64,000 nucleotides of DNA, from positions 10,759,501 through 10,823,500 of the forward strand of contig NC_091673.1 of the NCBI RefSeq assembly GCF_042453785.1, given 5' to 3'. A program made the position numbers and the translations under genes. The notes under the pieces are model-generated. The model made no database searches. It was not told the DNA's origin and worked only from the letters and a program-made list of their open reading frames with translations. Each line of letters starts with the position of its first letter. Position 1 is the first letter of the stretch. Shown one piece after another: positions 9,681 to 62,510 of this stretch. The DNA is from Malus domestica (lineage: Eukaryota; Streptophyta; Magnoliopsida; Rosales; Rosaceae).

Positions 9681-9984
9681 TGTAGCATTTTCAAACAAGT
9701 TAAGGTTAGACTAACCAAACAAAGTTTTTAGCTAAACACAAGATAAGCTACTTTAAAATAACTGGTCAAGACTCGGCATATGTCTCACAGGACGGATTTT
9801 TTAAGAAAACAGGTCCTATCAAGATACACTTCAATCACAAGTCATTTGGTGGAAAGGATTGCAGCTCTAGGGTTCTACAGAACGCCACTTTTAGGACAAA
9901 CCATATCGCGGATCCAGAACTACATTCGTATTCATAAGTCAATTAACATCATTTTCACAATATCCGAAATCAAATACAAGCTGA

Positions 9985-11722
9985 CTATAGTCCTTCCGCA
10001 ATTCCATGGATAGTGACCTCTGCCTCCAATATGCAAGTATCGTTCAACAGAAACCCCTTGTGTGCCTGATTGAAGGTTTCCAGTTTAAGGAACGTAGACC
10101 AACCCCAATCCCGAGTTGAGTTACTGAACCAGTTGTTAGCTGCACATAATACACCCTGAGGTTATGAAGGATTCATACAATTAAACACTGAAATTGGACA
10201 ATCTTTACCTATAAACCACTCATGTTTGGCATGCATTTGATCTACAATGCGCAGGGAAAACTCTGCAAAGACTTTGAAACCAGGAACTTTTTCCGGATCA
10301 TCCAATTCCAGGAAAAGAGAAATATGAGTACCCTTTCCATCGCCATTTCCCTCGGGATAGAGCAGTATCTTCCTGCAACGTTGGTAAGAATATGATAACT
10401 TTTTATTACGTATCTCTCGTTAATTGGGATGGGACCCTATTCACCTCACCTCTTTGGGTTTGAATTAAAAGAGCAAAGCCCTACATTGGAAGCAAAAATT
10501 CAACATGTTTTACAGTGATCGACCACATCTAGTGCGAAAGTTGTGTAGTTAAAATTGCATATATAGTTTGATACTCAAAAACCATATGCTTGTTTGGAGG
10601 AAAATTGACTTTAGCTAACAAGGGTGATTAGTACTCTCTATTATCATGCAGGTAAAACAAGATGAGTGATACGAGATTATACTGTGGATTAAAAATTAAA
10701 AATTCTCTTATTAAGGGCATTAATATAAAGGGCCTAGAAGAGATACCATTTTCGTTCTCCGGCAGTGAATGGTTCTGATTCGCAGCAGTCAGCACTTAAC
10801 TTTGAAAAGTTCTCAACCTTCCAAACATGCTTGCACATAACACCAACCTCGATCATTGATATTGACTCTCCTTTGCCGGCTCTTTTTTCTTTACAGACAA
10901 AGACCTCAGCTCCAATCACACAGGAATCATCAATGACATATCCATTGGAAGCATCAGTAAACGATTTAAGAGCGATAAGCTTATCAAATCCCGAATAACG
11001 CATCATCCCATGGAAACATATTTCCTTTTTATTGGCATCTATGGAAGATGTAGGGTAAAAAATAATATCAGCAAATGAGCAGTGAGCATTGCAATTTGCA
11101 AACAAGAAATTTTTCTTGTCTATGAATATGTTCACCTGATGAGAATTAACTTTTGAAGTTGGTATAATGTACCTTGAAGAACCAGGAACGTGCCTTTATT
11201 CTGATCAAGCAAAAAGAACCTGAAATCAACATATACTTCGCATCCCGTCTGAAGTGAATCAGCTCCAACCATTTCCAAGTAAACAGAGATGTGGCCTTCC
11301 ACATTTTTCTTCTTGTTGCCATTCGGGTAGAGCACTAGTTTCCTGGGAGCAAACATACAGTATGGGGCGTATGGCTAACATTTTATTTTTAACCAGCTTA
11401 CACAGCACATGATACACGAAACACATTATTGCATTACAGAGAAAATGTCATAGAACTAGTGTCTGACAGTGAGTGTGAAACATAAGTTTGCACAAGATGA
11501 TATTAAACTAAAACTTTAGCAGATGATATAATGGGAGATTCACCATTTGTATCCTCCAGCTTCAAATCCACCCGACTCATATTTGTCCGCAAAAATTTCG
11601 GTTAGCCATGAAAATGACCCGATTTTTATAGTGTAATGAGTTGGAGCTGAATCTGAATACGATGTTAAAAACCCTGAAACAAAATAGTGTTGATGAAAGC
11701 GTATATCAGGCATCTCTGGCAT
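9985..11722 (-). CDS. Intact double-MATH (TRAF-like) domain protein, 319 aa
   Basis: Five exons on the minus strand (11722-11544, 11342-11173, 11038-10747, 10372-10209, 10139-9985) with GT/AG ends sum to 960 nt, an exact 319-codon frame plus TAG. The first MATH repeat (about residues 20-155) has [43 protein letters not shown] and [19 protein letters not shown]. The second (about 175-315) has [47 protein letters not shown] and [20 protein letters not shown] folds bind short peptides; MATH-only plant proteins resemble the substrate-binding part of UBP12/13 and are often in tandem arrays. The specific partner is unknown. The start Met at 11722 is the first in frame, but a later Met (11713) is possible. 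It is the only unbroken member of the local cluster. Confidence 0.85.
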
Positions 11723-12626
11723 ATAACAATATCCTGAAATCTGAAAACCGCTAATATAAAGCAGATAAGTTATCTAACCATTTTGTCGAAGGGGATTACA
11801 AGCCATGGCAATAAAATTGGAATTGATTAACAAACTGTTAAGGCTAAACTGTTATCTTTTGCTTCAAGAGGAGCTTACCTATATATATAATGCCATTAGA
11901 GAAGGAAGTACGGGCATCCAATGAAAAGATTTTTCAGTGTGCCCCAAATAGTGTGGTATGCCACATGTCATTATACACTTAAAAAAAAAAAACTTCTTTC
12001 CAATTGTATGATGATATGTGATGTATCACTCTGTGTTTTGAACAGACTAAAAAATCTCACCACACAATGGGCTTGCTGCAGATTGAACGATATGTGTCTT
12101 TTCATCTCTCTATACTGTATTCAATAGCTTCATACACTGGATATACCTTCGGTTTGGTAAATTTGAAAGTGAAAAGATTGTATAAAGGAAGACGCGTATA
12201 CTTTAATCTTCACACCACACAAAGGTCTTTCTTCACCAACACAAAGCACTCAAACCTTTCTTCCCAAGCAAAATGAGGCAATATTGATGCCCATTAAAAT
12301 GAAAATTTGGAACTTTAAATTAGCAACATAACTTGAACCCGAGGCTACTATCTAGAAGAATATGAAAAGGTTCTTGTTAGTGCTGTTGCGATAATAGATT
12401 TAGGGACCGGTTTGCAGCTCCATTGAGAGGATTTGAATCCCATCTGGATCCTCTTTGTGAGGATTCATATTCATTTATTACGATTATAAATTATTTTTAT
12501 TTTTTTATATAAAATTAAACACAAATAATATTTAAAAATAACTAACCGCACAATGTATAAGATGCTAGGATATCTGAGATCTTCGTAAAAAGGATTAGGA
12601 GAGAATCCTTATCCCCATTGAGAAAT

Positions 12627-12770
12627 ATTGGAAGCCAACTTCAACTTTTTCTTTTTAGCTTTAACTTTCTCTTTTTTTCTTTGTTGTCAACTTTTTCTTT
12701 TTGCTTTTCTCCTTTTTTTTTTCTTCAACACACATAGTCCTCACCTTATGGTAGAGGTAAGAGCACTTAA
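12627..12770. mobile_element. Copia LTR fragment (fossil)
   Basis: Shares ttggaagccaacttcaac, ctttttagctttaac and cttttctccttttttt with the LTR start at 3729 and the scrap at 1655. No internal region is attached. Broken. Confidence 0.45.
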
Positions 12771-12774
12771 TACC

Positions 12775-13200
12775 TAAGATCCGATACTATTAAAGTTGTC
12801 CCACTTTGATCTCGAGACATGACAAAAATAAACTGATTATGTACATGCGAAAGGGATCAAGCCAATCATAATTCACCATTTTGTTAATCTAAAAAAAATT
12901 GTATTTGCAATGACTTCCAAAAATTCTCATGGCATTATCTAGGAAGACATAGCATTCTAGACAACTCACAATCAACAACAAATAACATTTCAATAACTCT
13001 GATTCGCATACAGTTTTTGCTTACGTGTTCGTGGGATCGAGATTTATTTGAAAACATTAAGAGTGACCCAATACGGATTTTTAATGACTAACTATGAAAA
13101 ACCGAACTTTGTAACTCTAAGATTGATAAAAAATAAATTAAATTCCCAAAAATTCAAACCTAAGAGTCAATGAACCTATGTAGAAGATTTAATGAGCCTA
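12775..13200. repeat. Dispersed repeat R1, copy 3
   Basis: Matches blocks of 30-800 in the same order: the 'atgacaaaaataaactgat' block, then 'tgttcgtgggatcgag', 'tttttaatgacta' and 'attcccaaaaat'. It lies between MATH gene B and fragment C and interrupts the cluster. Confidence 0.5.
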
Positions 13201-13299
13201 TTTGTTCAACGGGCCTAAATAACACTCACCCTCAAGTTGTTTTAACATATTTCCACGAATGATGGTTCAAGGCTTCCAGCGACTTTTGTAAGAGAAGAG

Positions 13300-13770
13300 A
13301 GGGTTTTAACAGGTTCCTTTAGATCATCCAATTCTAAGTGGAGAGAAATATGAGTACCCTTACCTTTCTGATATCCCTTAGGATAGAGCAGTAGCTTCCT
13401 GCAACAGCCATCACATGAAGAATAAGATTACATTTCAAGACATGAACATCCTACTTTAATTAAAACAACAGTTTTATACACATTGAAGAAAAAATTTAGC
13501 AACCCATTGAAGAAAAAAAATTAACAAAGGTGATTTAGCTCTATTATGATAGGAGGATAAGAGATTCGACGCTCGAGTAAGATTAACAACATTTTCTATA
13601 AAAGGTATTGATAAGATGGTGAATGACTTTTCGAGAGTTAAATATCTTATCATCAAATATACCACCTCAAGTCTTCAGCAGTGAATGCTTCCGAGTAGTA
13701 GCACCCAACATATGCATCTAACTTTGACAAGTTCTCAACCTTCCAAACATGCTTGTGCATAACGCGTTGT
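13300..13770 (-). pseudogene. MATH-domain gene fragment C
   Basis: Two exon pieces on the minus strand match the cluster's second MATH repeat. The first, about 13762-13661, reads [17 protein letters not shown] and EAFTAEDLRW. The second, about 13401-13310, reads [19 protein letters not shown] and ELDD. Exons 1, 2 and 5 are absent. It is a truncated duplicate that cannot make a full MATH protein. Confidence 0.8.
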
Positions 13771-13904
13771 TAATCAAGTTCTCAACAAGAACTTAATTAT
13801 ATCCCATAGTAAATCACTTCTACCCTCTTTGCACTGAATAGCTACTGAATAACTATTAATGTTGCTTTCTATAACCAAATATCATAATCCAAACAAAGTT
13901 TTTT

Positions 13905-14056
13905 GGGTAATGCTAAGGAGACTAAATTTGTAGACAAAATTTTGTAAACTCAATGATATGGAAGTTGATAATTGGATTATTACTCAAATGTTGATTAACG
14001 TGTTTATTTCTTATTGATGATACATCTTTGTAAATTTAGTCTACTTAGCATTACTC
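13905..14056. mobile_element. Mutator-type MITE, 152 bp, exact 9-bp TSD
   Basis: Flanked by the exact 9-bp duplication AAGTTTTTT (13896-13904 and 14057-14065). The terminal inverted repeats are GGGTAATGCTAAGGAGACTA on the left and, inward from the right, GAGTAATGCTAAGTAGACTA. The core includes ttgataattggatta and gtttatttcttattgatga, shared with copies at 45273 and 61068. A 9-bp duplication points to the Mutator superfamily. Confidence 0.85.
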
Positions 14057-14636
14057 AAGTTTTTTTATACTAAACACTAAGATGCTATACTGAGTGACAG
14101 ATTTTTTATTTTTGTTTTTGTTATAAGCAACACTCTACATCATTCAACACTGAAGGGAAGGGGAGGGTTTGAAATTTGAACCGGCCGGGACACGATTTAA
14201 TAGATGATACATGAATGTTGAACTGTTTCTTTTGGCTGTTTCTAAAAAGGCATTATTACGTAAATGTTAAGGTTATATCAATCTTAAATAACCTCACACG
14301 ATAAGGTGACATGTTAAAAATGTGCATGTCAATGGCTCAATATGTTTAACGCATTACACATTTTAAAAGAAGAAAAGGGGCCTTTCAATTCACAAAAGTA
14401 ACAAACTTCACCCTAAATTTATTACAAACATCAAAATACTCTTCAATAACAAGTCATTTGGTGAACAAGGACTTTAGAACTGGGGTTTGATAAGCCACAT
14501 TTAGACATGTGCTTTTACAATTTCATGGACTAACATGCCTTCCCTTAATCAAAACATCATTTTAGCAAATCAAACATTTGTCCCTTCATTCGTAACATCA
14601 TTTTAGAAATAGCAAAATTAACATACGAAGTGCCGA

Positions 14637-16047
14637 CTACAATGCTGTTGCAGTTCCACGGATTGTGACAACGGCCTCCGTTATGCAAGAATCCTTCACG
14701 GAAAATCTTCTGTCCGAATTATCGAGAGTGTCCAGTGAAATAAAGCTAGGCCAACCCCAACTGGTAGTCGAGGAACTGGACCATATTAGCTGCACAGAAT
14801 AAACCCACATGTTATAAAGGATGAATAAATTAAACACTAAAATAGGACAATCTTTACCTTTAAAGCTCTCATGTTTGGCGTGCAATTGAACGACAATGCG
14901 CAGGGAAAACTCTGCAAACACGTTGGAACCAGGATATTTTTCCGGATCATCCAATTCCAAGTGAAGAGAAATATGAGTACCCATTCCAGCGCCATTTTGC
15001 CTTGGGATAGAGCACTATCTTCCTGCAACAAGATGAGTGATAAGAGATTATATAGTGGATTAAAATTTTGAATAGATCTTAAGGTAATAATATGAAAGTC
15101 CAGGCAGAGATACTATTCCCGGCAGTGAAGGGTTCTGATTTGTAGAGGTCATCACCTAACTTTGAAAAGTTCTCAACCTTCCAAACATGCTTGTGGATGA
15201 CAGCATCCTTGATCGTCAATATAGACTCTACTTTGCCATCTCTTTTTTCGATACGAACAAAGACCTCAGCACCAATCACGCAGGAATCATTAATGACAGA
15301 ACCGTTGGAAGCATCGGTAAATGATAAAAGATAAGCTTATCAAATCCCGAATAACGCATCATCCCATGGAAGCATTTTTCCTTTTTGGCATCTATGGAAT
15401 ATGAAAAGAAAAAAAATAATGATCAGGAAATGAGTAGGACTAGAGAGCATTGCAATTTAACAAGAAAAATTTCGGGTCTATGAATATGATCACTTGATTA
15501 TTTTTTTTTTCTTTTTTTTCTCAAAGAATATGATCACTTGATGGGAATTAGGTTTTGAAGTAGATATAATGTACCTTGAAGAACAAGGAACATGCCTTTA
15601 TTCTGATCAAGCTCCTTCAGCTCCAACCATTTCCAAGTAAACAGAGATGTAGCCTTCCGCAATTTTCTTCTTGTTTCCATTCGGGTAGAGCACTAGTTTC
15701 CTGAGAGCAAACACACAGTATGGCAAAAAAAAAAAAAATTACCAGCTTACACAGCACGTAATATAAAAAACACATTCTTGCATTACCAAAAAAATGTCAT
15801 AGAACTAATGCCAAACAGTGAAATTGAAACATAAGTTTGCAGAAGATGTTATTAAACTCAAACGCGAGCAGAAGATATAATGAGGGTTTAACCATTTGTA
15901 TCCTCCAGCGTCAAATTCTCCCGTCTCGTATTTGTCCGCCGAAGATTTGTTAAGCAATGAAAACGACCCAATTTTTAGAGCGTCATGCGTTGGAGGTGAA
16001 TATGAATATCTAACCATTTTGTTGAAAGGAATAATAAGACATGGCAA
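14637..16047 (-). pseudogene. Double-MATH-domain gene, pseudogene D
   Basis: All five exon positions of gene B can be traced. Exon 1 (16047-15892) has [14 protein letters not shown] and [14 protein letters not shown]. Exon 2 (about 15702-15577) has [12 protein letters not shown] and [11 protein letters not shown], with an internal deletion of about 50 nt. Exon 3 (about 15390-15110) has [16 protein letters not shown] and [14 protein letters not shown], with its 3' end lost. Exon 4 (about 15022-14857) has [17 protein letters not shown] after a frame change near 14990. Exon 5 (about 14790-14637) has WGWPSFISLDTLDN. Several lesions make it a pseudogene. It is the closest relative of gene B, and its upstream flank (about 16090-16290) also resembles that of B. 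Confidence 0.85.
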
Positions 16048-22400: not shown

Positions 22401-25400
22401 TTGAACAAGAATACCAATTCGAACCAGCACGTCAATTCCATCACTACTGAGACCTTTCCCAAAGCATTGAATCAGGGGCAAGATTGTCTGGTGAAAGAAT
22501 AATGGTTAGCTGGAGTATTGTGAGTTTTTGTTTGTCCATTTCTAAGACAGATTCGCACAATTTTAATTTTGTGAAGTCACAAAGGCAAGAATACTGGGTT
22601 GGTTTAACCTGATGAATGGTAATAGGTATACCAAGTTCTTCACTTGAGCAAATAAGCAGCACGGAAGCAGCGGTTGCTGAACTATTATGAGCGGCAGTAT
22701 ATAAGTTCAATATAACAAGAGGATGTACAGTTTCAAGATATACTTGTTTGCCAGTTCGATTCCATATCTCTCGAACAAAGGAGTCTTGTAGAATAGAAAC
22801 CTTTAGATGTGAATAAACTGTAGTCTGAAACAAAGATGTCTATAAGAAACAGTTCAAGAAGATATTCCCAATAAAACTGAAAAAAAATAAATCTCAAAAC
22901 TAACCTGTAAAATCTTCTGGATGGCAGGCAAGACTAATGTCTTCACTGCTTTAGGGGTCAAACTTTTGATGAATTCTTTCAGTAGTATATAAGCCCATTC
23001 GGCTTCAGTATCTGATAAGGGAGTCACCACAAATGATAAGCAATAAGGAGCACACATTTCCGCAGCAAATGTTCCCATTGCCTTGAGGACTCCTTGCTTT
23101 GCAAAATTTGCAGCATACTGAAGGCAGGATCCACCTTTAGCCAGCAGCTGGAGAGGGGCCAGAAATAAGTAGGACGCCTTAACCGTAGTAGGAAAATATG
23201 GTGATTCCAACAGACACTTAGCCGATGGTCTCCTAATTTGTGTTACCCAGAGAGAGAGTGAGAGAGAGCAAGGGAATAACATACAGTATTTTATTTAAAA
23301 ACTGAGAAATGAAAACGAATACCTCATGCAATCCTTTTGAATGCAAGCTTCAACAAGTAATTTGGTGTGAGGAGGAAGTTCATGCATCAATCCAGGTAAT
23401 ACACCACTGTCCAAGTACATGGTCAATGAGCTTGGGTCAAAAAGTGGCTTCCTCAAATGAAGTTCTGCTAAGAGACAACCGACAGAAAATATATCCCTTG
23501 CAATTTCTTCAGAGAACATCTTTAAACAAGATGATTTTTCCCTCCAAAGAAATAGCTCTTGATATCCCCGGGAACCTTCATCCTCCACTTCAATATGCTC
23601 AAGTAGATAACTTGTATCAATGTGTAACCGTGACAACTGGTTTTTCTTACTGTCAGATGACAGAGGTATACTTTTGTTAACATTCTCACCTGATGACTCT
23701 TGTACAGGAGAAATGTCCCTCACAAAGTCTAGATGGTAGCCATAGAGGGGACTTAAATGCATAGCATGTTCACAAAAGGAAGATGCATCTTCTAATTCTT
23801 GCAAGTAAGCAGTTTCAGATAGGACAGAACTCTCACTCCTTAATTCATGATGCAAAGTTGATTCATTGGTGCTATCACATGGTTTCCGCACTGCACCTCG
23901 ACGCATAGGGTGAGGTTGAGTGAACAGCTGACGGCGTCCTGCAGACCTCGGCATCATAGGTTCTGATGAAGGAAGCATTACATTCTTTGCAGAAACAGCT
24001 GCCTCACCTGACATCTTGTAGCCAAAGGTGATATCAATCCAGTGATGGAGTTCACGTGAGACCCGTTCGCTTTCTAAAGCATCACGATGCAATTTAATGA
24101 ATTCCTCAGGACCATCTGCCCATGAAGGTACCGCCAAGTCAGTCATACCAGCATGAAGTGAATGAAAAATTTGAGGATTGCAGTAAAACTCCGGAATACA
24201 CTCATCAGGGGTCCACTGATAAAGTCTTTGCATGGTAGAGGGATATTCATTAGGTTCATAGACTGAGCGAACAGCCATACGTAGAACACTCAAAGGTAAC
24301 CTCCTAGCTTTATAACTGCAGACAGCCAATTCAGAAAGACATTCATCAGATACGTGATGTGGGAACTCCGATGTTGAATAGGTGAAGTCCAACTGTTCAT
24401 CACCTTTAGCCAACCTCCATTTACTCTTTTTTAAATCCCGCCACCCTGCATCTGAATTCTCATCAGGTTTCGTGCTAAAATCTATTACCCAAGGCATCAC
24501 TGTATGAAATGTGTGGTCACCCCACCTTCGCCCAGCTAATCTATTCAAGATGAGAAGATACTCAAAATTACTGATCTCTCCTCTCCACCATTGGTTGAAG
24601 TCACGATGCCAGTCTATAGATGGGGAACGCTTCAAATCAGCATAAAGACCTTGAGAGGGACAACCAGCTTCTGAGCAACCTACCTTTTCTGGTAAGGTAC
24701 TTGTGCATCCCTTGCCTCTTGAACTTGAACTAAATCCTACCCCGGGCTTATCAAAAATGGACAGCCAAGACCAGCATGATTCAGTAAGCATTACACTGGA
24801 TGGACATATATTGCCATGGGCAACCCCTAAACCATGAATATAAGCTAGAGCCGAGAGCAACTGGTATATCAGAAACCTTATATGCCAGTCAGATTTTAAG
24901 GCTTCGGGACTGTAATGGAGAATGTTTTCCAATGTGTACGGAGTTTTTGGAAGAGCTACATCTATATAATGGGATGCTTTAACCATCATAAGTACGGGAG
25001 CAATATTTGGATGCCTTAGGGAGCCAGGGAACTGATTCTCATCAAACGACGGTATCCCAAGTAAGTTAAGAAAATTTACACTGTCTCTCCCTGAAGCTTT
25101 CCCTTCAATCAAGAGACTAAGCGAGTTCAATATGTGATCTTCCAAAGACCCGGTCAAAGAGTTAACAGCAAGCTCTTCAAAAACTGAGTCTGAGAAATTG
25201 CCAACATAACTAACCGGTACCAATGCACTGATAACCCTCGAGCAAGAAAACCTAGTGGAATGCTTACAGGTAGAACTATGTAGCAATATTTCTGTGCCAC
25301 CATTTGACAAACACTTAGGCTCATTCATTAAAGAATCTGACTTTGGTTTTTCATTACTGTAAACATCAGAACTAATTTCTTCTTCATCCCGAGTTACTCC

Positions 25401-25985
25401 AACTGAAGCGATCCTACCATCAATCCCATTATCACTGCAGCCTTCAGCATTGTCCAGGACATATTCATTACTGGAAAAAACAAAAAACAAAAACCCGAAT
25501 CTATCTTCATCCTCCATCATTTCAGCAACAGAAAATCATCGATTATGTTCGAATTTCGATTCATATTATACATAACCAATGTGGGGTTATTACATACTGA
25601 TCAAAATAAACTAAAAAATCTGAAATTTGTGACAAAAATGAGTAATTAGAGTTAGCTTAAGGGTCTTACACATATTTAGTCAAGCAATCGTTTGGATGAC
25701 TGGGTAGAAATTTGAGCAAAAACTGAGGAGCCGAAGCAGCTTCCCCACTTGAATTACACAACTACAAACACCAACTGCTTCAGCATTTGAACGTTTTGAA
25801 ATACAAAATGCACAGAGATGAGAAAGAAAGAGAAGGAGTGAGAAGGTTTGAACTTTGACCTGGACGACGGCGGAGGAGCCGAAAGGGAAGGCGGAATCGG
25901 AGAGGCCGTACGAGAAAACGAGTTTGCCGGAGAAGTCGCAGTGAATCCGGCGTTGGAGGCAGTCGAAGCACATTTGCTGCGCCAT
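19401..25985 (-). CDS. GFS12: GFS12-type pseudokinase/BEACH/WD40 protein
   Basis: A multi-exon gene. Exon 1 (25985-25860) encodes MAQQMCFDCLQRRIHCDFSG. The long exon 2 (25470-23333) encodes a kinase-like domain (LLSALAYIHGLGVAHGN...) followed by a BEACH domain (NFEYLLILNRLAGRRWGD, TPDECIPEFYCNP and WADGPEEFIKLHRDALES). Then come helical HEAT-like exons (about 23232-21650) and C-terminal WD40 exons (about 21280-19401), for example CDGTIHVWSSRTGKLI and GHCRLFDARSGNVISSWKAH. The stop after YLRICC is at 19401. This order is that of Arabidopsis GFS12, a BEACH protein known to act in trafficking to protein storage vacuoles. The kinase loop reads HGN-x-C where HRD-x-K is expected, so it is probably a pseudokinase. 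A Met at 26003 is an alternative start. No break was seen in the exons read. Confidence 0.88.
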
Positions 25986-30601: not shown

Positions 30602-31320
30602 CGGGTCGGGTTTTGTCGGATAACGCTGGCGTCCCCGGAGACGGAGAAGTCAATTCGGGTCGGGTCGGGGTCTGGTGTTGTGTGGTGGATTGGAGTGGCA
30701 AATGATGTTTTATTGGGTATGGGAAGTGCGCAGTTGGCACTTGGCAGGTGGGCTGATGATGAGTGTGCTGCTATATTTGGATTAGATTGTGAAGGCACAC
30801 GCGCGGAAATGGTTCACGAGAGGCACGCGCCAGTGGAGTGGTTAGAATGGAATGCATGAAGTGTGGCGCGTATTCTTACATGTGGTTGTTGGCAAGGCAT
30901 GGGAAGCTTAGCGGGTACTTTAAGGCTGATTCTGTCATTTTCTTGGAAGATCAGTTCAACGATTTTCAACAACAATGATTTGTATGGGCGATTTGTACAG
31001 GCGATTGATTCCTGATCGTTGATGTATTTGAAATTTCTTATGAAATTTATATTTAGAGTCAAAATTATTCGATCACGTTGGTGGTTGAGCACATCAATGA
31101 TTTTTTATTAAGAAAAAATTAGGTTCATATTCTTTTTTTTTTTACCCTATTAATTAAAAGAAAAATTAATGAAAAGAGTTTCAAAATTTTAAGTTTTAAT
31201 CAAAAACTACCTACTAACTTTATTTAATGATAATGACAAGAGAAAGAAAAAAAATAAAAAAATACATAACAAAAATTTGGTGCGGCCCTACTTACTACGC
31301 CAAGCAAGTATCTAAAGCAT
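30602..31320. promoter_or_regulatory. Upstream region of ACLA and intergenic
   Basis: The first 250 bp upstream of the ACLA start are GC-rich and fit a 5' UTR and promoter. No clear TATA box was picked out. The remainder to 31320 is AT-rich and shows nothing recognisable. Confidence 0.35.
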
Positions 31321-31321
31321 T

Positions 31322-31435
31322 ATGTCTGTAACAATAGAGTATCCTCAAATACATACCAAACCTATAATCTTTCACGGTGATATAAAGTCCAATAACATTC
31401 TTCTTGACCACAAGTTTGAATCCCGTGTTAGAATT
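31322..31435 (+). pseudogene. Receptor-kinase catalytic-loop fragment
   Basis: The translation includes HTKPIIFHGDIKSNNILLD, the protein kinase catalytic loop of receptor-like kinases (HRDIKSxNILLD with Arg replaced by Gly), and continues HKFESRV. The homology stops where the truncated LTR begins (about 31436). No further kinase sequence is seen upstream. It is a scrap and is not expected to be functional. Confidence 0.6.
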
Positions 31436-31686
31436 TCTATAAAATGGACTCCTCACCCTCATAATGAGGAGGAGCCTCCTCACCCCCAGAGGCCTCACCT
31501 CCCCTCTCATATTCAGAGCAAAACTCTCATCCTCTCAATCCTCTCACAAACAGAGAAATACAATATCAGTGTGGACATAGCCCAAACATTGGGGTGAACC
31601 ACGATACATATTGTGTTATTTACATTTCTTGCAGATTCACGGTCAGATTTACGTTGTTCCAAGACCTCTGGTTTTGTGCATCAACA
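31436..31686 (+). repeat. LTR element 1, truncated 5' LTR
   Basis: Matches the last about 250 bp of the 3' LTR at 35012-35262, including tctataaaatggactcc, gtggacatagcccaaac and the end gtgcatcaaca. Confidence 0.85.
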
Positions 31687-32072
31687 TTTGGCGCCGTCTG
31701 TGGGAAACGACACGAAAAGCTATGTAAGTTCTTTTTCATTTTTTCATCTCACCACCATGAATCTGCAAAATCACAAAAACCCAAAACAAAGAGAAACAAA
31801 CGCTTCCAAATCCAAATTCCATATTATGATCTCACTCACTCTCACTCCCTCTCTTATCCACCGCACAACCTCCGCTGTCGTCTTCCTCTTCCCGATCCCA
31901 AACCCAACAAGGGTGCACCCTAGCAGTAGCACCAGCCCCTTCAGGACCCGATGCTCTTCTGCTGGCTAAGGCTTGCAGGAGACACCCAAGTCTTTCAAGA
32001 AGAGGAAATTGAGCTCCGATCTCTACTCGTCGGTGCCATCCCAGGCGGAAAGAGAGGGACGGAGGGTGGAGA

Positions 32073-32538
32073 ATGTCGAAGGCGATAGGTCTGGCGCGGC
32101 AGGGTCTCAAAGCTCTCAAACAATCCAACTTGCTCAAGGCTTTGCAATCCAAGATACAATACAAACTTTCCTCTAATCCCTTTCAGGAAAGATGAAGCTC
32201 CTCGTTGGGTGATTTTGTGGTGGAGTGGGATTCACCACGATCCCAAGATGTGGTTTTTGGGAGGAAATTTGATAGCGGTGAGGAGGTTGTTGTTTCTGCT
32301 TTGTTGGGTCCCTTTCACTCTGAGGAAGACTCTGTTGAAAAATACAACGAGTATCTAGGGGAAGCTTTGATGAAGGTATGTGTGAAGAAGCCTGGTTTGA
32401 GCTCAATGCTACAGTTCGATTGCAGTGTTTTTGAGATTATCGGTTCTGGGTCCGTATTCAACATCCATAATGCCCATATTCTTCAACCATCAGCTGGTCT
32501 TGGCCCTTCTGTCGACAGAGGCCCCGCATTCAAATGGA
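32073..32538 (+). pseudogene. Captured p32/MAM33-like mitochondrial glycoprotein fragment in LTR element
   Basis: Translations of this stretch match the plant mitochondrial glycoprotein (MAM33/p32) family: MSKAIGLARQGLKALKQSN at the start, then GDFVVEWDSPRSQDVV, SALLGPFHSEEDS, LMKVCVKKPGLSSMLQFDC and FNIHNAHILQPS. The normal protein is a mitochondrial matrix trimer. Only about two thirds of the gene is present; the conserved C-terminal end is missing. The piece lies between the primer site and the repeat arrays of the element, as cargo. It is a broken copy. Confidence 0.7.
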
Positions 32539-32657
32539 GATATCTCAGCATGCATCAAGACCAGATCTCTCTCTACTCAAACAGTGCGGGAAAAGCTGGT
32601 GAAGAATCTAGCTCCACCTCCGCCAAGCAGCAAAGATCCTGGCCTCTGCTGAGATGA

Positions 32658-32747
32658 GCTCCTTCAGTACCCGACTCTGCTAGCGCCGATGGCCATGGAC
32701 GCCGTGCTCTCTGTGGTGAACCCCGTGAAGCTCGATCTCGTTAATGG
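32658..32747 (+). pseudogene. Captured CCT4 (TCP-1 delta) chaperonin fragment in LTR element
   Basis: About 27 codons read QYPTLLAPMAMDAVLSVVNP followed by VKLDLVN. This resembles the conserved QYSTLLAPLAVDAVLSVVDP segment of the delta subunit of the cytosolic TCP-1/CCT chaperonin. The match is short but dense. A segment of unknown origin (about 32540-32657) joins it to the MAM33-like piece. Confidence 0.6.
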
Positions 32748-33282
32748 CTGGCTTTTCACCGGAGGATGGGCTAAACGTGGGTTGTAGAATGATGTTGTTG
32801 AGAGAATATTTCAAAAAAAGCATTAAAGGAAGAAGATTAAAAAAAATAGGTCTGGAGGTGGAAAGAGACAGAGAGAAGTGCAGCAGAAAAGAGAAAATAA
32901 GGAAGCAAAAGCAAAGCAAAAAAGCAAAAGCAAATCAGAAAGAAAAGCAGAAAAGCAGTGGGAAACAAAGCAAAAAACAGAAACAAAAGCGAAAGCAAAG
33001 CATAAAAAACCGAGAAAAGCCAGAAAGCAAAAGAGAGGCTTTCCTCTGCGATAGCACATGGCGACACTGCAAAAGCAAGGAATAAACACCCCACCAAAAT
33101 GATGTGATTTACTTTCCTTATTTTTGAATGATGTAATTTATTTTTCGTATATTTCGGAGATATCTGTATAACCCCATCAGAGGGTAATAAAAAAAAACGG
33201 CAAGCCCAAAATAATAGGCTGCAATGTTATGTGAAAGGCGAATGCCCATACGCCCAAAAGAGCTAGGCCATATGACTCTAAA

Positions 33283-33612
33283 TTTATTCAGCACCCTGCC
33301 GCTATTATCACCAACCAGGTGATCAAAAGTACGCCCAGTACTTCCAAATTTATTCGGCACCATGCCGTTATTATCACCAACCAGGTGATCAAAAGTACAT
33401 CCACTACTTTAAAATTATTCGGCAGCCTGCCGCTATTACCACCAACCAGGTGATCAAAAGTACGCCAGTACTCCAAAATTATTCGGCACTCTGCCATTAT
33501 TATCACCAACCAGGTGATCCAAAGTACGCCCAGTACTCCACAATTAATCGGCAGTCTGCCGCTATTATCACCAACCAGGTGATCAAAAGTACTCGAGTAC
33601 TCCAAAATTATA
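33283..33612. repeat. Five tandem repeats of about 65 bp
   Basis: Five units of about 65 bp, each with ttattcggcaNcctgccg, ctattatcaccaaccaggtg and atcaaaagtacgcccagtac. Units differ by a few bases. One to two units of the same repeat occur in the sister element (37250-37345, opposite strand). Confidence 0.9.
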
Positions 33613-33925
33613 CATGAGCATCACTCATGTCAATCATACATAAACATTCATGAGCATCACTCATGTCAATCATACATAAACATTCATGACCATCATTCAT
33701 GTTGAGCATCACTCATGTCAACATTCATGAGCATCACTCAAGTCAACATTCATGAGCATCACTCATGTCAATCAACATAAACATTCATGAGCATCACTCA
33801 TGTCAATCAGCTTCGAAAGCTTCATTTACAGAGCTCCAGCTTCAAAAGCTTCATTTACAAAGCTTTAGCTTCAAAAGCTTCACTTGCAAAGCTTCACCTA
33901 CAAAGCTTCAGTGCAAGGTATACAA
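33612..33925. repeat. Two short tandem-repeat families
   Basis: First, five or six irregular copies of 'catgagcatcactcatgtcaa' words (33612-33810). Then alternating 'agcttcatttacaaagct' and 'agcttcaaaagcttc' words (33810-33920). Both sets recur in inverted order at 36940-37240. Confidence 0.85.
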
Positions 33926-34049
33926 ATACCACCTCCGAACAACCGACACTTCGGCCCATACATGAATTCAACTTGAAGTCTTCAGCCAACAGACCCTATT
34001 GACTGAATACTTGGGGGACTACATTATGTACCATATTCCATATATTAGG

Positions 34050-34710
34050 CTTCAACTGGGCCTCATGAAAAATACTTAGGGGACTTAGCCCATTATTTAT
34101 GTACTGAGGAGCGAGCCCTTATTCTATAAAAGGGACTCCCTCACTTTCATTAAAGAGCCCTTTATTCTATAAAAGGGACTCCATCACTTCGGCCCATACA
34201 TGGATTCAACTTGAAGTCTCCAGCCAACAGACCCTATTGACTGAAGACTTGGGGGACTACATTATGTACCATATATTGGGCCTCAACTGAGCCTTATGAA
34301 AAATACTTGGAGGACTTAGCCCATTATTTATGTACTGAGGAGCATGTCCTTATTCTATAAAAGAGACTCCTTCACTTTCATTATAAAGCACCCATTATTC
34401 ATGTACTGAGGAGCGATCCCTTATTTTATAAAAGGGACTCCATCACCATCATTAGAGAGTATCGCCGCCTGCTGAGCAACTACCTCGCCGCGAGCATCAC
34501 TTCTAACTCATCACTTATGTATTGAGGAGCGAGCTATTATTCTATAAAAAGGACTCCATCACCATCATTAGAGAACATCGCCACCTGCTGAGCAACCGTC
34601 TCGCCGCGAGCATCGACTCTAGCCCACCATTTATGTATTGAGGAATGAGCTCTTATTCTATAAAAGGGACTCCCTCACTTTCAAACTCCGCAAGCCGAGC
34701 CAACTAAGGC
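34050..34710 (+). repeat. Array of TATA-bearing repeats
   Basis: Six irregular copies, spaced roughly 35-190 bp, of a unit with tactgaggagcgagc, then ttattctataaaaggg and actccatcacc. TATA-like cores lie near 34124, 34166, 34354, 34425, 34541 and 34657. The same core is in the LTR (about 35010), so the array looks derived from LTR promoter sequence. Confidence 0.8.
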
Positions 34711-34895
34711 AACATAAGCCACAAGCAGAGCAGCCTCGCAACATGTGCTACTTCTAGTTGAGTATCACTTCAGATTGAGCACCGCCTCATATCGAGTATC
34801 AGTTCAAAATGACATCTAGTTACTTCGGCCCACACATAGCTGAATTTCAAGTCTCCAGCCAAAATACTCTCTTGACTGAAGACTTGGGGGACTAC

Positions 34896-35262
34896 TGTTT
34901 GTATCATACTTAGGGCCTCCGTATTTAGACCTCGTATAAATACTCGGATAACTCAAATGTAATTATATAATAAAGGAAAGGGCAAATATGTAATAAGTGA
35001 GAAACCCTTATTCTATAAAAGGGACTCCTCACCCTCACAATGAGGAGGAGCCTCCTCACCCCCAGAGGCCTCACCTCCCCTCTCATATTCAGAGCAAAGC
35101 TCTCACCCTCTCAATCCTCTCACAAACAGAGAAATACAATATCAGTGTGGACGTAGCCCAAACATTGGGGTGAACCACGATACATCTTGTGTTATTTACA
35201 TTTCTTGCAGATTCACAATCGGATTTACGTTGTTCTAAGACCTCCGGTTTTGTGCATCAACA
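34896..35262 (+). repeat. LTR element 1, 3' LTR
   Basis: 367 bp, TGTTTGTATC...CATCAACA. TATA-like ctataaaagg near 35015. Closely similar to the LTRs of element 2 in reverse orientation. Confidence 0.9.
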
Positions 35263-35753
35263 AAAATCATATTCATTTTCATTTTTTGATCAAGGTTCTT
35301 GGGTATTAATAACATCATTAATTATTTGAATAATAAAATATTTTTATTTTTAAATATATTCATTTAGTGTTAAAAATGTTACAATTAGTATATTTATATT
35401 TATGGCCAATTTTTTTATCATATATTTTTATTTTTAGTTTGTACCTATTTTTAATTTGCAAATATTTTTTAATTTGTACCAATTTTCTTTTCATCCATAT
35501 ATTATTTTCTTTTTGTGCCCAATTTTTTAAAGTTTTATTTGTGTTTGTACCCATGTGTATACCGTCACGTGACATTGTATATTTAATCAATAATAGAAAA
35601 ATTACATATGGTATGTTTATGTTTTATGCCTAAACTTTGTATCATATATTTATATTTTTAGTTTGTACCCACTTTTAATTTGCAACATTTTTTTGTTATA
35701 ATGTACCCATTCTTCTTTATTAATGTACCACTTTGTTATATGTGAAATGTACA
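35263..35753. repeat. AT-rich spacer with repeated gtacc-attttt words
   Basis: About 490 bp of AT-rich sequence with recurrent 'tgtaccNatttttaatttgca' words. Similar words resume at 39281-39320, so element 2 appears to have inserted into one older AT-rich repeat of unknown class. Confidence 0.5.
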
Positions 35754-36122
35754 TGTTGATGCACAAAACCGGAGGTATTGGAACAACATAAATCCGACCG
35801 TGAATCTGTAAGAAAGTAAATAACACAAGATGTATCGTGGTTCACCCCAATGTTTAGGCTACGTCCACACTGATATTGTATTTCTCTGAGAGGATTGTGA
35901 GGGATAGAGCCTCTGTAATGTGAGTGAGGCTTTGAGAGGATGAAGGGGCTTGCTCTGAATATGAGAGCCCATCCCCATTGTGAAGGTGATGAGTCCATTT
36001 TATAGAATAAGGGCTCCTCACTTATTACATATTTGCCCATTCCTTTATTACATAATTACATTTAAGTTCCCCGAGTATTTATACGAGATCTAAATACGGA
36101 GGCCCTAAGTATGGTACAAACA
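35754..36122 (-). repeat. LTR element 2, 3' LTR
   Basis: 369 bp; contains a 23-bp segment (near 36030-36052) absent from its partner at 38935-39280. Confidence 0.9.
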
Positions 36123-36339
36123 GTAGTCCCTCAAGTCTTCAGTCAATAGAGTCTTTGGCTTGAGACTTGAAATTGAGTTCATGTGTGGGCCGAAGTAACT
36201 AGATGTCATTTTGAACTGATACTCGATATGAGGCGGTGCTCAAAGTGAAATGATGCTCAACTAGAAATAGCATATGTTGCGAAGCTGCTTAGTTTGTGGC
36301 TTATGTTGCCTTGGTTGGCTCGGCTTGTGGAGTTGAAGG

Positions 36340-36790
36340 TGAGGGAGTCCATTTTATAGAATAAGGGCTCATTCCTCAATACATGAATGATGGGCTAGAG
36401 TTGATGCTCGCGGCGAGGCGATTGCTCAGCTGGCGACGATACTCTCTAATGATGGTGAGGGAGTCCCTTTTATAAAATAAGGGCTCACTCCTCAATACAT
36501 GAATGATGAGCTAGAGTTAATGCTCGCGGCGAGGCGATTGCTCAGCTGGCGACGATGCTCTCTAATGAAGGTGAGGGAGTCCTTTTTATAAAATAAGGGC
36601 TCGCTCCTCAGTACATGAATAATGGGTGCTCTCTAATGAAAGTGAGGGAGTCCCTTTTATAGAATAAGGGATCGCTCCTCAGTACATGAATAATGAGTGC
36701 TCTCTAATGAAAGTGAGGGAGTCCCTTTTATATAATAAGGGTTCGTTCCTCAGTACATAAATAATGGGCTAAGTCCCCCAAATATTTTTC
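36340..36790 (-). repeat. TATA-bearing repeat array in LTR element 2
   Basis: About five units carrying the complement of ctataaaagggactccctc (near 36355, 36468, 36585, 36655, 36725) with aatgaaagtgagggagtcc. Counterpart of 34050-34710. Confidence 0.8.
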
Positions 36791-37829
36791 ATGACGCCCA
36801 GTTGAGGCCCAATATATGCTACATAATGTAGTCCCCCAAGTCTTCGGTCAATAGAGGTTGTTGGCTGGAGACTTCAAATTTAATCCATGTATGGGCCGAA
36901 ATGGCGGTTGTTCAGAGGTGGTCTTTGTAGACCATGCACTGAAGCTTTATAGGTGAAGCTTTGCAAGTTGAAGCTTTTGAAGCTAGAGCTCTGTAAATGA
37001 AGTTTTCGAAGCTGGAGCTTTTGTAAATGAAGCTTTTGAAGCTAGAGCTCTGTAAATAAAGTTTTTGAAGCTGATTGACATGAGTGATGTTCATGAGTGT
37101 TTATGTTGATTGACATGAGTGATGCTCATAGATGTTGACATGAGTGATGCTCATGAATGATGGTCATGAATGTTTATGTATGATTGACATGAGTGATGCT
37201 CATGAAATGTTTATATATGATTGACATGAGTGATGCTCATGTATAATTTTAGAGTACTGGACGTACTTTTGATCACCTGGTTGGTGATAATAGCGGCAGG
37301 TTGCCGAATAATTTTGGAGTACTGGGCGTATTTTTGATCACCTAGTTTGTGGTATTTTGGGCTTATGGGTCTTCGCCCTCCACATAACATTCCAGCCCAT
37401 TTATTTTGGGCTTTGCCGTTTTTTTTTTTTAGTACCCTCTGATGGGGTTAAACAGATGTCTCCGAAAAATAAGAAAAATAAATTACATCATTCTGGTGGG
37501 GTGTTTATTCCTTGCTTTTGCAGTGTCCCCATGTGCCTCCCTTTTGCTTTCTCTTTATTTTTCTTTCTTTTGGCAGATGACAGACAAGGGAATAATGCCA
37601 TTTCCTTTTTTTGCTTTTGCTTTCGTTTTCTCTTTTCTTTTCTGCTTTTGTTTCTCCCACTTCATTTCTTTGCCCACCCATGTTACCCATCCCTGTCTGA
37701 TGTGCAGACACGCTGAAAGATCAAAGGGAAATAGCAAATAATAACATTCATCACTGCAGCTATGAATCTTACTGTTCTTCAAGTACTGGGTATGATCCAT
37801 CGCCGCCGTCTCCGAAGAGCCTCCACATT

Positions 37830-38135
37830 TTTCCGGAAAGTAGAGCAGATCTTGCTGTCAATGAGACAGCTCTTGATCTTGTTCCAGTTTTTTGGTGCTG
37901 TTAACCCTTTTCTGGAGCCACTGCGACTAGTCCCCGAGCCTGTACTCCTTGTACCCTTTCCCGGAAAGTACTTTTCCGGCGCCTTTGTTGGTGACAGCGA
38001 AGGCGAAGATGGTGACTGCGAAGATGACCACGATGAGGAGGAACATGACGAGGAGGTTGACCCACAGTAGCCACGAGACTTAGCAGCAGACGCCAATTAG
38101 GTCGGCCAGCGACACCAACATGAGGAAATACGCCG
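37830..38135 (-). pseudogene. Captured tetraspanin fragment in LTR element
   Basis: Minus-strand translations give [47 protein letters not shown] and NWNKIKSCLIDSKICSTFR. These match the second and third membrane segments and the start of the large extracellular loop of plant tetraspanins (TET8 type). The first membrane segment and the C-terminal part are absent. Cargo within the element; broken. Confidence 0.7.
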
Positions 38136-38213
38136 AGGATGATGACGATGCTCGGCAGAGCTCAGCAAAGGTGTTGAAGAAGTTCCAGAAGGAGGTGTTG
38201 TCTTTGGGGCTTT

Positions 38214-38348
38214 GTTCTTGACAGCAACTTTTGTCTTGTCGCTGAGAATCCCACTGTAAACAATACCGTACCCTCCTTCCCCAATCACATTCTCCTCACG
38301 CAACTTATTCGTCGCCGCCTCCAGCTCCCTCAGAGTGTACCATCTCAT
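38214..38348 (-). pseudogene. Captured receptor-like kinase fragment in LTR element
   Basis: 45 codons read [30 protein letters not shown] and KVAVKN, the start of the kinase domain (glycine loop and VAVK lysine) of plant receptor-like kinases of the GPK1/At3g17420 type. It ends right after the VAVK motif and is joined directly to the BRX-like piece upstream. Confidence 0.75.
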
Positions 38349-38670
38349 TCCCCCATAGCTTCGGGGTCAAATTGGATCTCCCCGTTCGCCTGTACGAGCC
38401 GTGGAAACCCGACGATTCTGAGTTAGCATCGGAGTCGGCATAGCTTTAGTGACGGTTGTCAGTGCATGACCGTGAACAGGGCTTGCATTTTTTGTAAGCT
38501 CCTGGGGCCTTCAATGCTATATCCTTGATCTGGGCAGTGAGGGCCTTGATGACTTGCTTGGTCCTAGGAGTCCCGGCGACAGCGTCGTTGTCGTCGTCTT
38601 GGTGGTGGAGAGATCCATCGTTGAGCTGCTTGGAGCATGATGGTAAATGGGGTCTAGTGGGTACACTCAC
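38349..38670 (-). pseudogene. Captured BREVIS RADIX-like fragment in LTR element
   Basis: Minus-strand translations give TKQVIKALTAQIKDIALKAP, GAYKKCKPC, DSDANSESSGFHGSYRRTGR and WGNEM. This is the N-terminal conserved block of BREVIS RADIX family proteins (usual form AVKALTxQIKDMALKASGAY and RWSYRRTGS...WGKEM). The two BRX domains proper are missing. The piece lies close to the 5' LTR of the element and is broken. Confidence 0.7.
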
Positions 38671-38934
38671 GGAGAGACAAAGAGATGATATCTATAAAGA
38701 CCCAAATTTCTTGGTGTAGTATGTAGTGTTTCCAGAAACGTAAAGAGAGAAAGATGAGAACTTTCTACCGAGAGACAGAGAGAGTGGTGTTCTTGGTTTT
38801 TGTGATTTTTTTTTCTGGGAAAGTTTTGGGTTATTGGGTTTTTATTTACAGATTTTGCAGATTCACGGTGGAGGTGAAAAAATGAAAGATAACTGACACA
38901 ACTTTTCGTATCGTTTCCCACAGACGGCGCCAAA

Positions 38935-39280
38935 TGTTGATGCACAAAACCGGAGGTCTTGGAACAACGTAAATCCGACCGTGAATCTGCAAGAAAGTAA
39001 ATAACACAAGATGTATCGTGGTTCACCCCAATGTTTGGGCTACGTCCACACTGATATTGTATTTCTCTGAGAGGATTGTGAGGGAGAGAGCCTTTATAAT
39101 GTGAGTGAGGCTTGGAGAGGATGATGGGGCTTGCTCTTAATATGAGAGCCCCTCCCCATTGTGAGGGTGAGGAGTCCATTTTATAGAATAAGGGCTCCTC
39201 ACTTATTACATAATTACATTTAAGTCCCCTGAGTATTTATACGATATCTAAATACGAATGCCCTAAATATGGTACAAACA
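38935..39280 (-). repeat. LTR element 2, 5' LTR
   Basis: 346 bp, TGTTTGTACC to TCAACA on the minus strand, followed by the primer-site-like sequence at 38936-38917. Confidence 0.9.
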
Positions 39281-60816: not shown

Positions 60817-60841
60817 TGCGGTGAAGGTGGATCGAACACCT

Positions 60842-60884
<43 letters not shown>

Positions 60885-60889
60885 CCCGC
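60817..60889 (-). tRNA. tRNA-Phe (GAA)
   Basis: 73 nt on the minus strand with a full cloverleaf. Acceptor GCGGGGA/TCACCGC, D arm GCTCAGTTGGGAGAGC, anticodon arm CAGACTGAAGATCTG with anticodon GAA, T arm AGGTGTTCGATCCACCT, discriminator A. It matches plant tRNA-Phe except for two paired changes in the T stem (AGGTG/CACCT for GCGTG/CACGC), which keep pairing. A T run on the minus strand (60799-60803) about 15 nt downstream could terminate Pol III. Confidence 0.95.
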
Positions 60890-61527: not shown

Positions 61528-62510
61528 TCAAACGTCTGTGAAGCGAAGGTACCCCTTCTTCGACGGGAGGTCCATAGTCTTGTAGCCCTGAGGGAACGTC
61601 TTCTTGGCCTCCTCCTCAGACACCGACGGAGAAATGACCACCGGATCCCCCGGCTTCCAGTTCGCCGGGGTTGCCACCTTGTGCTTGTTCGCCTTCTGCA
61701 GCGACTCCAACACCCTCACCACCTCGTCCATGTTCCGCCCCGTGCTCGCCGGGTACAGAAAGCTCAGCTTCACCTATAACCAAACAAATTAATTAACCCC
61801 AAAGTTTAGCCTTCGTACACACAATTACACATAATTAAGCTTCCATTGGGCCTAAGTACCTTCTTATCAGGCCCCACGATGTGAAGAGCGCGCGAGGGAA
61901 CTTGGTTTCCTGAGGAGTCCTTGACATCCGGCTCCACCATGTTAAGTTGCTTAATGATCTCTCGTTTCGGATCTGCCAGAATCGGGTAGTCCACCTTGCA
62001 CCCGGACTGCATAACACAAAACACACATATGTATGTGTGTGTGTATATGTATATATATATAAACCACCCTTGCATATATAACATAACCAAAAAATGAGTG
62101 TTGGAAACACTAGCCAAAATTAGAGCGTCAATCGAACATATTGAATAATCAGAACTTACGTCGTAGGCTTCGATATCCTTGATCCACTCGAGGTGAGAAG
62201 GCACATCGTCGCATGACAAACCCACAAGCTTCACTCCCTTCTCTCGAAACTTGGGAGAATACTCGGCCATCTTCCCGAGCTCCGTAGTGCAAACCGGCGT
62301 GAAATCGCCTACACGCATGCACATGCAACCACATAATCAAACTAATTAAGCAAATTAACAAGAGGAATTAGTAAGTAATTAAGGTTAATTACCGGGGTGG
62401 GAGAAAATGATGGCCCAGCTGTCGCCCAAGTAGTCGTAGAGCTTGATCTTTCCATGGGTGCTTTCAGCTTCAAGGTCTGGGATGGTGTCTCCAATGGTGA
62501 GTCCTGGCAT
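61528..62510 (-). CDS. PER1: 1-Cys peroxiredoxin, 219 aa
   Basis: Four exons (62510-62393, 62308-62160, 62006-61860, 61773-61528) sum to 660 nt. The protein starts [20 protein letters not shown]. It has the peroxidatic Cys in [16 protein letters not shown], then [35 protein letters not shown] and, in the C-terminal Prx domain, [16 protein letters not shown] and DPVVISPSV. There is no resolving Cys motif, as expected for the 1-Cys (Prx6) class. In plants these reduce hydroperoxides in embryo and aleurone nuclei and cytosol and mark seed desiccation and dormancy. Length is typical. The promoter carries seed and ABA motifs (see 62581-62720). Confidence 0.95.
62018..62062. repeat. (TG/TA)n microsatellite in PER1 intron 2
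   Basis: Alternating tatgtatgtgtgtgtgtata then tatatatata. Confidence 0.9.

Follow-up and report, generated by a model that had tools for sequence, protein, structure and literature searches.

A tail-to-tail pair of related non-autonomous LTR elements with unlike internal cargo, part of it resembling host genes

Pack-MULEs are DNA transposons with inverted ends. They are described in PMC4717578 as containing introns as well as exons. Gene capture has also been published for LTR elements, namely for Bs1, for GmaRetroS15 and in surveys covering maize, rice, sorghum and pepper. GmaRetroS15, a soybean TRIM, is described as carrying fragments from three host genes in which only exons are represented (PMC4717578), and Bs1 of maize as an LTR element that holds segments from three different host genes (PMC13317346). 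In maize B73, 425 gene-bearing elements from 81 families are reported with at least 189 captures, about 20% of which are found in elements outside the assigned families (PMC2774510). From these counts, we infer that capture is repeated, with different cargo within families. In pepper, about 72% of the retroduplicated NLRs are reported inside elements without gag or pol, and two or three genes within one LTR-R were also seen (PMC5664825). As for the Retand/Tat elements, about half of the recently active Retand elements are described with arrays between pol and the 3' LTR (PMC11963269), and 97% of the Retand clusters with an antisense TRP28 (Transposase_28) ORF. Retand/Tat elements are also described as using non-Met tRNA primers, tRNA-Asp being among those of the non-chromoviruses, and some members as non-autonomous (PMC11963269, PMC6317226). 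The path from mRNA to cargo in LTR gene capture has so far been mostly inferred. In the part of the literature covered by our search, no statement of one family with swapped multi-gene cargo was found, and for Rosaceae or apple elements only PMC4717578 appeared relevant, as judged from the search results.

We looked at a 64-kb stretch of DNA (the window) in which the first-pass annotation had described two LTR elements of one family in opposite orientation, with their 3' LTRs 491 bp apart. This description held, and its coordinates were right to within one base. Element 1 (31435-35262, plus strand, 3,828 bp) and element 2 (35754-39280, minus strand, 3,527 bp) lie tail to tail on either side of an AT-rich spacer of 491 bp (35263-35753), which contains an internal duplication (141 columns, 77%). 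Paired LTRs, TG...CA ends, a primer binding site (PBS) 3' of the 5' LTR and a polypurine tract (PPT) 5' of the 3' LTR were present. The LTR matches are not due to chance, with E-values such as 5.8e-142 and 9.8e-114.

On the plus strand, element 1 starts with a truncated 5' LTR (31435-31686) that is 95.6% identical to 35011-35262 over 252 ungapped bp; 115 bp of U3 are missing, homology starts at the TATA box, and because of this truncation the TG end is absent. It is followed by the PBS (TGGCGCCGTCTGTGGGAA at 31689) and leader (31687-31784), an A-rich AAAGC block (32806-33053, 55% A) and three arrays detected by TRF, with units of 65 bp (33275-33611, 5.2 copies), 36 bp (33613-33753, overlapping rows to 33774) and 29 bp (33807-33910). 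Next come an array of 231-, 71- and 116-bp units (33947-34683), the PPT ACTTGGGGGACTAC (34882-34895) and the 3' LTR (34896-35262, 367 bp). Element 2 reads on the minus strand from a 5' LTR of 346 bp with one 23-bp deletion (38935-39280) through the PBS and leader (38834-38934) to an A-rich AAAGC block (37537-37700, 49% A in sense). A block of arrays (36957-37354) then comprises 65-bp units (37243-37354), a 37-bp array (37072-37241) and a 29-bp array (36969-37072), the last two detected by TRF. A stretch resembling the PPT and U3 start (36804-36900), an array of 71- and 116-bp units (36334-36768), the PPT ACTTGAGGGACTAC (36123-36136) and the 3' LTR (35754-36122, 369 bp) complete the element. 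The internal regions measure 3.2 kb in element 1 and 2.8 kb in element 2. LTRs, primer site, leader, A-rich block and four arrays had been given as common to the two elements, and this was borne out except for the 65-bp array, which in element 2 comes to about 112 bp and did not register as an array. The flanks of element 2, GTACA and ATACC, agree at 3 of 5 positions, short of a perfect 5-bp target duplication.

Several signals were seen in both elements. The PBS TGGCGCCGTCTGTGGGAA may resemble the 3' end of tRNA-Asp, and the leader can pair with U5 to form a stem around this primer site; such complementarity was equalled by 0/1000 shuffles for element 2 and by 2/1000 for element 1. The TATA module of the LTR recurs within the final arrays, with six internal copies in element 1 and five in element 2, and PPT-like copies are found within the 3' arrays, including that of 231-, 71- and 116-bp units in element 1. 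The internal TATA-module copies, the PPT-like copies and the U5-leader stem are new details of this locus. The PBS string did not occur in the literature covered by our text search, and the exact 32-base LTR-PBS pattern gave 0 stretches in viral_contigs.

Kinship was assessed by comparing the two elements part by part. The LTRs of one element are 95.6% (element 1) and 94.5% (element 2) identical to each other (K2P 0.045 and 0.057), and LTR pairs across elements show 80.4-85.0% identity. The own LTRs of each element group together at 31/31 informative sites and in 1000/1000 resamplings. Between the elements, the leader is 90.6% identical over 96 columns, the 3' blocks 87.9% (231 columns) and 91.4% (210 columns), and the A-rich block with the stretch that follows it 72.4% (330 columns); for the A-rich block, the global alignment score was 91, and 200 shuffles peaked at 43. 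Besides the LTRs, a query with the LTR against the window (E 1e-3) gave only short matches inside the arrays of the two elements. The pair consists of two independent insertions of one family.

To look at coding capacity, 63 stop-free pieces of at least 45 aa, from both internal regions and both strands, were scanned with Pfam. No match to gag, protease, reverse transcriptase (RT), RNase H, integrase or Transposase_28 was found in 63/63 pieces, a scan that remnants shorter than 45 aa or heavily frameshifted would escape. At this piece length, the elements lack gag and pol as had been proposed, and no gag/pol or antisense TRP28 remnant was retained. The following sub-cut-off matches were taken as chance: MCP1_TM (0.006), NagA_N and InaF (both 0.0092), Cys_rich_VLP (0.022), YqzE (0.057), Mpo1-like (0.067), U9-ORF and CUX1_N (both 0.072), DUF7645 (0.079), CTD10 (0.093), zf-CCCH (0.094) and YTH (0.098).

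Between the leader and the A-rich block, each element holds about 1 kb that is unlike that of the other. When the two cargoes were aligned, the score was 25, which 13/100 shuffles also reached, in agreement with the earlier proposal of unlike internal sequence. The names proposed for this cargo fared unequally. In element 2 (minus strand), the fragment at 38476-38571 matches the BRX N-terminal domain (Pfam PF13713, E 5.7e-17, 61.6 bits for a cut-off of 24.5), a firm assignment, and the fragment at 38214-38354 resembles the kinase domain start of a receptor-like kinase, a good one (phmmer against PDB, BAK1, E 2.4e-8); among its 20 PDB matches at E <=0.001, 18 are kinases or kinase receptors and two are labelled hypothetical protein, and in Pfam its E is only 0.015. 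As judged from these profile and sequence matches, element 2 holds host-gene fragments. The tetraspanin name given to 37930-38079 (TM3 region) is near chance: its Pfam PF00335 match has an E of 0.0033 and 17.5 bits for a cut-off of 32.1, barely better than the chance matches to MCP1_TM, NagA_N and InaF, and no PDB match was found at E <=1. Four weaker sub-cut-off Pfam matches of this piece were also taken as chance. In element 1 (plus strand), the resemblance of 32662-32730 to CCT4 (the T-complex delta subunit) is weak, with a best E of 0.097 by phmmer against PDB; 9 of its 10 PDB matches at E <=1 are CCT delta, and there was no Pfam match. The segment at 32073-32525, with one stop near its start, may be MAM33-like (plant mitochondrial glycoprotein family). 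This name found no support from Pfam at E up to 10 and no credible PDB match, seven NAD kinase sequences at 0.09-0.10 being taken as chance, and its single-sequence model (pLDDT 49.9) was too poor for a fold search. Host genes would be the source of the element 1 cargo as we read it. A search of the window for donor genes detected none: with the two cargoes as blastn queries, there were only self-matches and one 22-bp match (E 0.017), and tblastn of the five cargo peptides only self-matches and one tetraspanin match (E 0.39).

Our best reading is that both are non-autonomous, trans-mobilised, Tat/Retand-like LTR elements, now decayed; the Tat/Retand link rests on the primer site, the PPT and the 3' arrays, an RT domain being absent. 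They represent two insertions of one such family in a plant genome, in which cargo was probably acquired by template switching onto host mRNAs before both decayed. The elements retain what trans-mobilisation would use, namely LTRs, a TATA box, a tRNA-type PBS in a U5-leader stem, a PPT and a repeat-rich 3' end, and at the position expected for gag-pol they have about 1 kb of other sequence, at least partly sense-strand host-gene fragments, different in each member. Most likely, the reverse transcriptase of a related autonomous element left the element RNA at the A-rich block, continued on host mRNAs that had been packaged with it and returned to the element RNA at the leader; the resulting chimeric cDNA would then have integrated, both copies decaying after insertion. 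The helper element, the template switching and the mRNA origin of the cargo are put forward as the likely route. Against this reading, element 1 has no firm host-gene match, and there is no intact target duplication.

Capture at the DNA level, by gap repair, nested insertion or a Helitron- or MULE-like process, is a rather unlikely alternative to template switching. DNA transposons too are described as joining fragments of several genes, by transduplication (PMC13317346). Against such a route, all five named fragments have the sense orientation of their element, a weak point since support is weak or lacking for three of the names, and a count that leans to sense since names were read by eye in sense frames only while antisense pieces were scanned with Pfam; for the firm fragments, BRX and receptor kinase, it is 2/2. 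Nor was a TIR- or Helitron-like nested element noticed in passing. The two members are compatible with independent capture, with replacement and also with differential loss, in which a larger ancestor held all of the internal sequence and each lineage kept a different part, so that nothing was swapped. The cargo occupies the same position in the two elements, from leader to A-rich block, without overlap, and only two family members are visible in the 64-kb window, as this would allow; however, complementary losses sparing the leader and the A-rich block would be needed, and no shared cargo is detectable beyond the level of shuffled sequence (13/100). We consider differential loss unlikely.

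The proposal that the inverted pair could yield double-stranded RNA was also considered. In the predicted fold of a transcript across 34890-36130, 329 pairs form between the LTR arms (-592.5 kcal/mol), and the arms could pair in this way. However, the 5' LTR of element 1 lacks the upstream U3, and since the cargo is unlike between the arms, a hairpin would be made of LTR and array sequence and would not extend to the donor genes. That the pair works as a dsRNA source silencing its family or the cargo donor genes is doubtful. An origin of the pair from a single element, by inverted duplication or misassembly, is extremely improbable: the inverted arms are long and 83-99% complementary among the 25 pairs listed of 56, but the nearest relative of each LTR is its own partner at 31/31 informative sites, which rules out inverted duplication, and the internal cargo differs.

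Under the template-switching reading, the family might have a standing cargo slot, with a fixed leader and primer stem on one side and the A-rich block and PPT-U3-TATA arrays on the other favouring repeated jumps, a tentative extension to which we give a low probability. If it were true, most members would each contain their own set of several mRNA pieces joined in a string, and the family as a whole would be an RNA-based equivalent of Pack-MULEs; the internal TATA arrays may also add transcription starts near the 3' end. The locus alone amounts to two decayed copies. Since the skeletons of these two sister copies can be aligned and their cargo is unlike, the capture site is pinned between two short landmarks, and a genome-wide comparison of the family could show whether capture recurs there and proceeds by template switching.

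The two elements resemble Retand elements, as described in the source consulted, in the repeat arrays 5' of the 3' LTR, and differ from them in lacking RT and the antisense TRP28 ORF (63/63 pieces) and in their internal regions, given as 7.4-12.9 kb for Retand. Like GmaRetroS15, they are non-autonomous LTR elements, with fragments of host genes at least in element 2. However, gene-bearing TRIMs are given as 1,172-1,449 bp long (PMC4717578), a size that 3,828 and 3,527 bp exceed; most are described there as having at least two copies with the same acquisition, and Tat-like 3' arrays, present here, are not mentioned for them in the part of PMC4717578 consulted. The segments of Bs1 are described as forming a transcribed and translated chimeric gene (PMC13317346), whereas the cargo reading frames are broken in both elements here. 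In the maize B73 survey, as far as consulted, more than one standard nuclear gene is not reported for any single element (PMC2774510), and element 2 holds at least two, BRX and receptor kinase; the pepper study is centred on NLR genes as cargo (PMC5664825). With Pack-MULEs, the pair shares common ends around host-gene fragments, but these ends are direct LTRs, without terminal inverted repeats. As an LTR counterpart of Pack-MULEs the pair is not new in kind; it is an example of the known pickup of gene fragments by plant retrotransposons.

We compared the LTR at 35754-36122 with the whole window. Its match at 38935-39280, on the same strand, is 88.6% identical over 369 columns, among them a 23-bp gap; on the opposite strand it matched 35262-34896 (84.0%) and 31686-31435 (79.4%), while the remaining matches at E 1e-3 were short and all lay within the arrays of the two elements themselves, that is, the tandem repeats before each 3' LTR. 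Element 1 occupies 31435-35262 (+, 3,828 bp) and element 2, of the same family, 39280-35754 (-, 3,527 bp), and the opposite-orientation pair proposed in the first-pass annotation, with 3' LTRs 491 bp apart, was borne out by these matches and by the spacer. The spacer contains an AT-rich direct duplication at 35355-35718 (77% over 141 columns). The 5' LTR of element 1 lacks 115 bp and begins at the TATA box, and at E 1e-3 the window yielded no relative of 30700-31434, which lies on its 5' side. Element 2 is flanked by GTACA and ATACC, with the same base at three of five positions, which falls short of a perfect target-site duplication.

In a four-LTR alignment, each element's own pair was the closest (95.6% over 252 columns for element 1 and 94.5% over 346 columns for element 2, against 80.4-85.0% for cross pairs). 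Own LTRs were grouped at 31 of 31 informative sites when the three possible pairings were compared over 245 gap-free columns, and in 1000 of 1000 resamplings. Judged from these LTRs, elements 1 and 2 are two insertions. Their K2P distances are 0.0453 and 0.0571, giving ages of about 1.7 and 2.2 million years with the 1.3e-8 per site per year used in the available text of PMC5664825, a borrowed rate that may not fit this plant.

The plant-type genes and elements point to a flowering plant as host, probably one of the Rosaceae. The family was sampled through these two members, plus the literature. They align along the leader to about 31784/38834 (90.6%, 96 columns), and again from the A-rich (AAAGC) block via the arrays up to the 3' LTR: the A-rich block and next stretch at 72.4% (330 columns), and the 3' blocks at 87.9% (231 columns) and 91.4% (210 columns). 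Between these tracts lies the cargo, and 31800-32869 showed no similarity to 38825-37721 (local score 25, shuffle mean 21.9, matched or exceeded by 13 of 100 shuffles). Common ends, leader, A-rich block and arrays enclosing different insides, as first annotated, are therefore confirmed. The claimed absence of gag and pol also held: among 63 stop-free pieces of at least 45 aa taken on either strand of the two elements' internal regions (31 from element 1, 32 from element 2), Pfam found no gag, protease, RT, RNase H, integrase or Transposase_28, and the sole piece above its cut-off was BRX_N.

Signals for replication are retained. The primer site TGGCGCCGTCTGTGGGAA, which we take to resemble tRNA-Asp, starts two bases past the 5' LTR in both elements. 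It is enclosed by a U5-leader complementarity (31600-31784; 38834-39010), whose score was reached by 0 of 1000 shuffles for element 2 and 2 of 1000 for element 1, and whose stem is present in the predicted folds of both. The 22-base TATA-box module of the LTR, CTTATTCTATAAAAGGGACTCC, occurs 14 times in the window at up to 4 mismatches (3 in LTRs, 6 inside element 1, 5 inside element 2) and nowhere outside the elements on either strand. TATAAAA is kept in 11 of 11 internal modules, these copies being chosen by likeness to a module containing it. Besides the true polypurine tracts (PPT), similar copies at up to 3 mismatches number 4 inside element 1 and 2 inside element 2, followed by an LTR-start-like stretch in 2 cases and 1 case, respectively, and 36804-36900 is 81% identical to 36099-36194, which spans the PPT-LTR joint of element 2. 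Because of these internal modules and PPT-like copies, the array that precedes the 3' LTR appears to consist largely of diverged copies of the element's own PPT-U3-TATA segment. The arrays with such copies lie at 33947-34683 and 36334-36900 (6 and 5 TATA modules), and possibly provide extra promoters or are the outcome of repeated strand switching. In the accessible part of PMC11963269, arrays occupy the corresponding place in about half of the Retand elements that were recently active.

The five cargo names first proposed fared unequally. In element 2, the BRX N-terminal domain was recovered by Pfam (5.7e-17, 61.6 bits, cut-off 24.5), and the receptor-kinase piece matched BAK1 in the PDB at 2.4e-8; 18 of its 20 PDB matches at E 0.001 or below are named kinases or kinase receptors and 2 hypothetical protein, with a Pfam E of just 0.015. 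The tetraspanin piece was weak (Pfam 0.0033, below cut-off, barely better than matches taken as chance at 0.006 and 0.0092; no PDB match at E 1 or below), as was the CCT4 piece of element 1 (best PDB E 0.097, CCT delta in 9 of 10 matches, no Pfam match). The presumed MAM33 piece of element 1 found no support in Pfam even at E 10, no credible PDB match and a poor single-sequence structure model. Hence host genes are firm in element 2 alone: by sequence similarity it firmly carries pieces of at least two, while in element 1 none appears established beyond doubt. Both cargoes are partly unnamed (e.g., 31800-32072, 37721-37860), and their reading frames are interrupted by stops. All five named fragments lie on the element sense strand, the one strand whose frames were read by eye; antisense pieces were covered by the Pfam scan alone. 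No donor gene turned up in the window: blastn of both cargoes gave self-matches and one 22-bp match (E 0.017) at the leader end of element 1, and tblastn of the five peptides gave self-matches and one tetraspanin match (E 0.39).

Elsewhere in the window, the Pfam scan took in 10 of the 48 ORFs. MATH-domain pieces lie on the minus strand at 8576-8914 (2.3e-5, below cut-off), 10734-11132 (6.5e-15) and 14637-14981 (1.6e-11), three separate pieces that would form a local cluster of genes or pseudogenes (8576-14984). One piece at 23295-25517 (-) combines BEACH (4.8e-42) and kinase (4.5e-9) domains and resembles the plant GFS12 type. A peroxiredoxin piece (61806-62321, -; AhpC-TSA 1.3e-17) lies near a tRNA-Phe gene (60817-60889). 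A 5S rRNA-like match at 1271-1381 (-; Rfam 38.4 bits, gathering 38) sits in a stretch starting TGTCACATCC at 1187 and ending GGGATGTTACA at 1457, whose first part is repeated at 1533-1651 (83%); 1187-1651 looks like a TRIM with 5S sequence in its LTR, which we assume to be of Cassandra type.

Template switching would best explain why pieces of genes are lined up between two conserved landmarks. A related autonomous element could transcribe, package and copy both elements, and gene pieces would be added through switches between the element's RNA and other RNAs that are packaged; abnormal template switching is described in the available text of PMC13317346. Capture of the cargo at the DNA level, and differential loss rather than swapping as the source of the unlike cargo, seem to us less likely alternatives. 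As for double-stranded RNA, if one transcript spans 34890-36130, its LTR arms would pair (329 predicted base pairs), but since the cargo differs between arms, it would not itself become double-stranded.

Host-gene capture by LTR elements is already published, and elements 1 and 2 belong to a known kind. In the parts of these papers available, Bs1 captured three genes (PMC13317346) and GmaRetroS15 three, exons only (PMC4717578); captured genes number 672 in rice and 1,343 in sorghum (PMC3726574), and about 72% of retroduplicated NLR copies in pepper lie inside elements without gag or pol (PMC5664825). In maize (PMC2774510), 425 elements of 81 families go back to no fewer than 189 captures, which implies to us that one family can capture repeatedly, although about 20% of captures are in elements outside families. 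As far as the accessible text of that survey goes, no element held more than one standard nuclear gene, which places element 2, with fragments from two or more host genes, on the unusual side.
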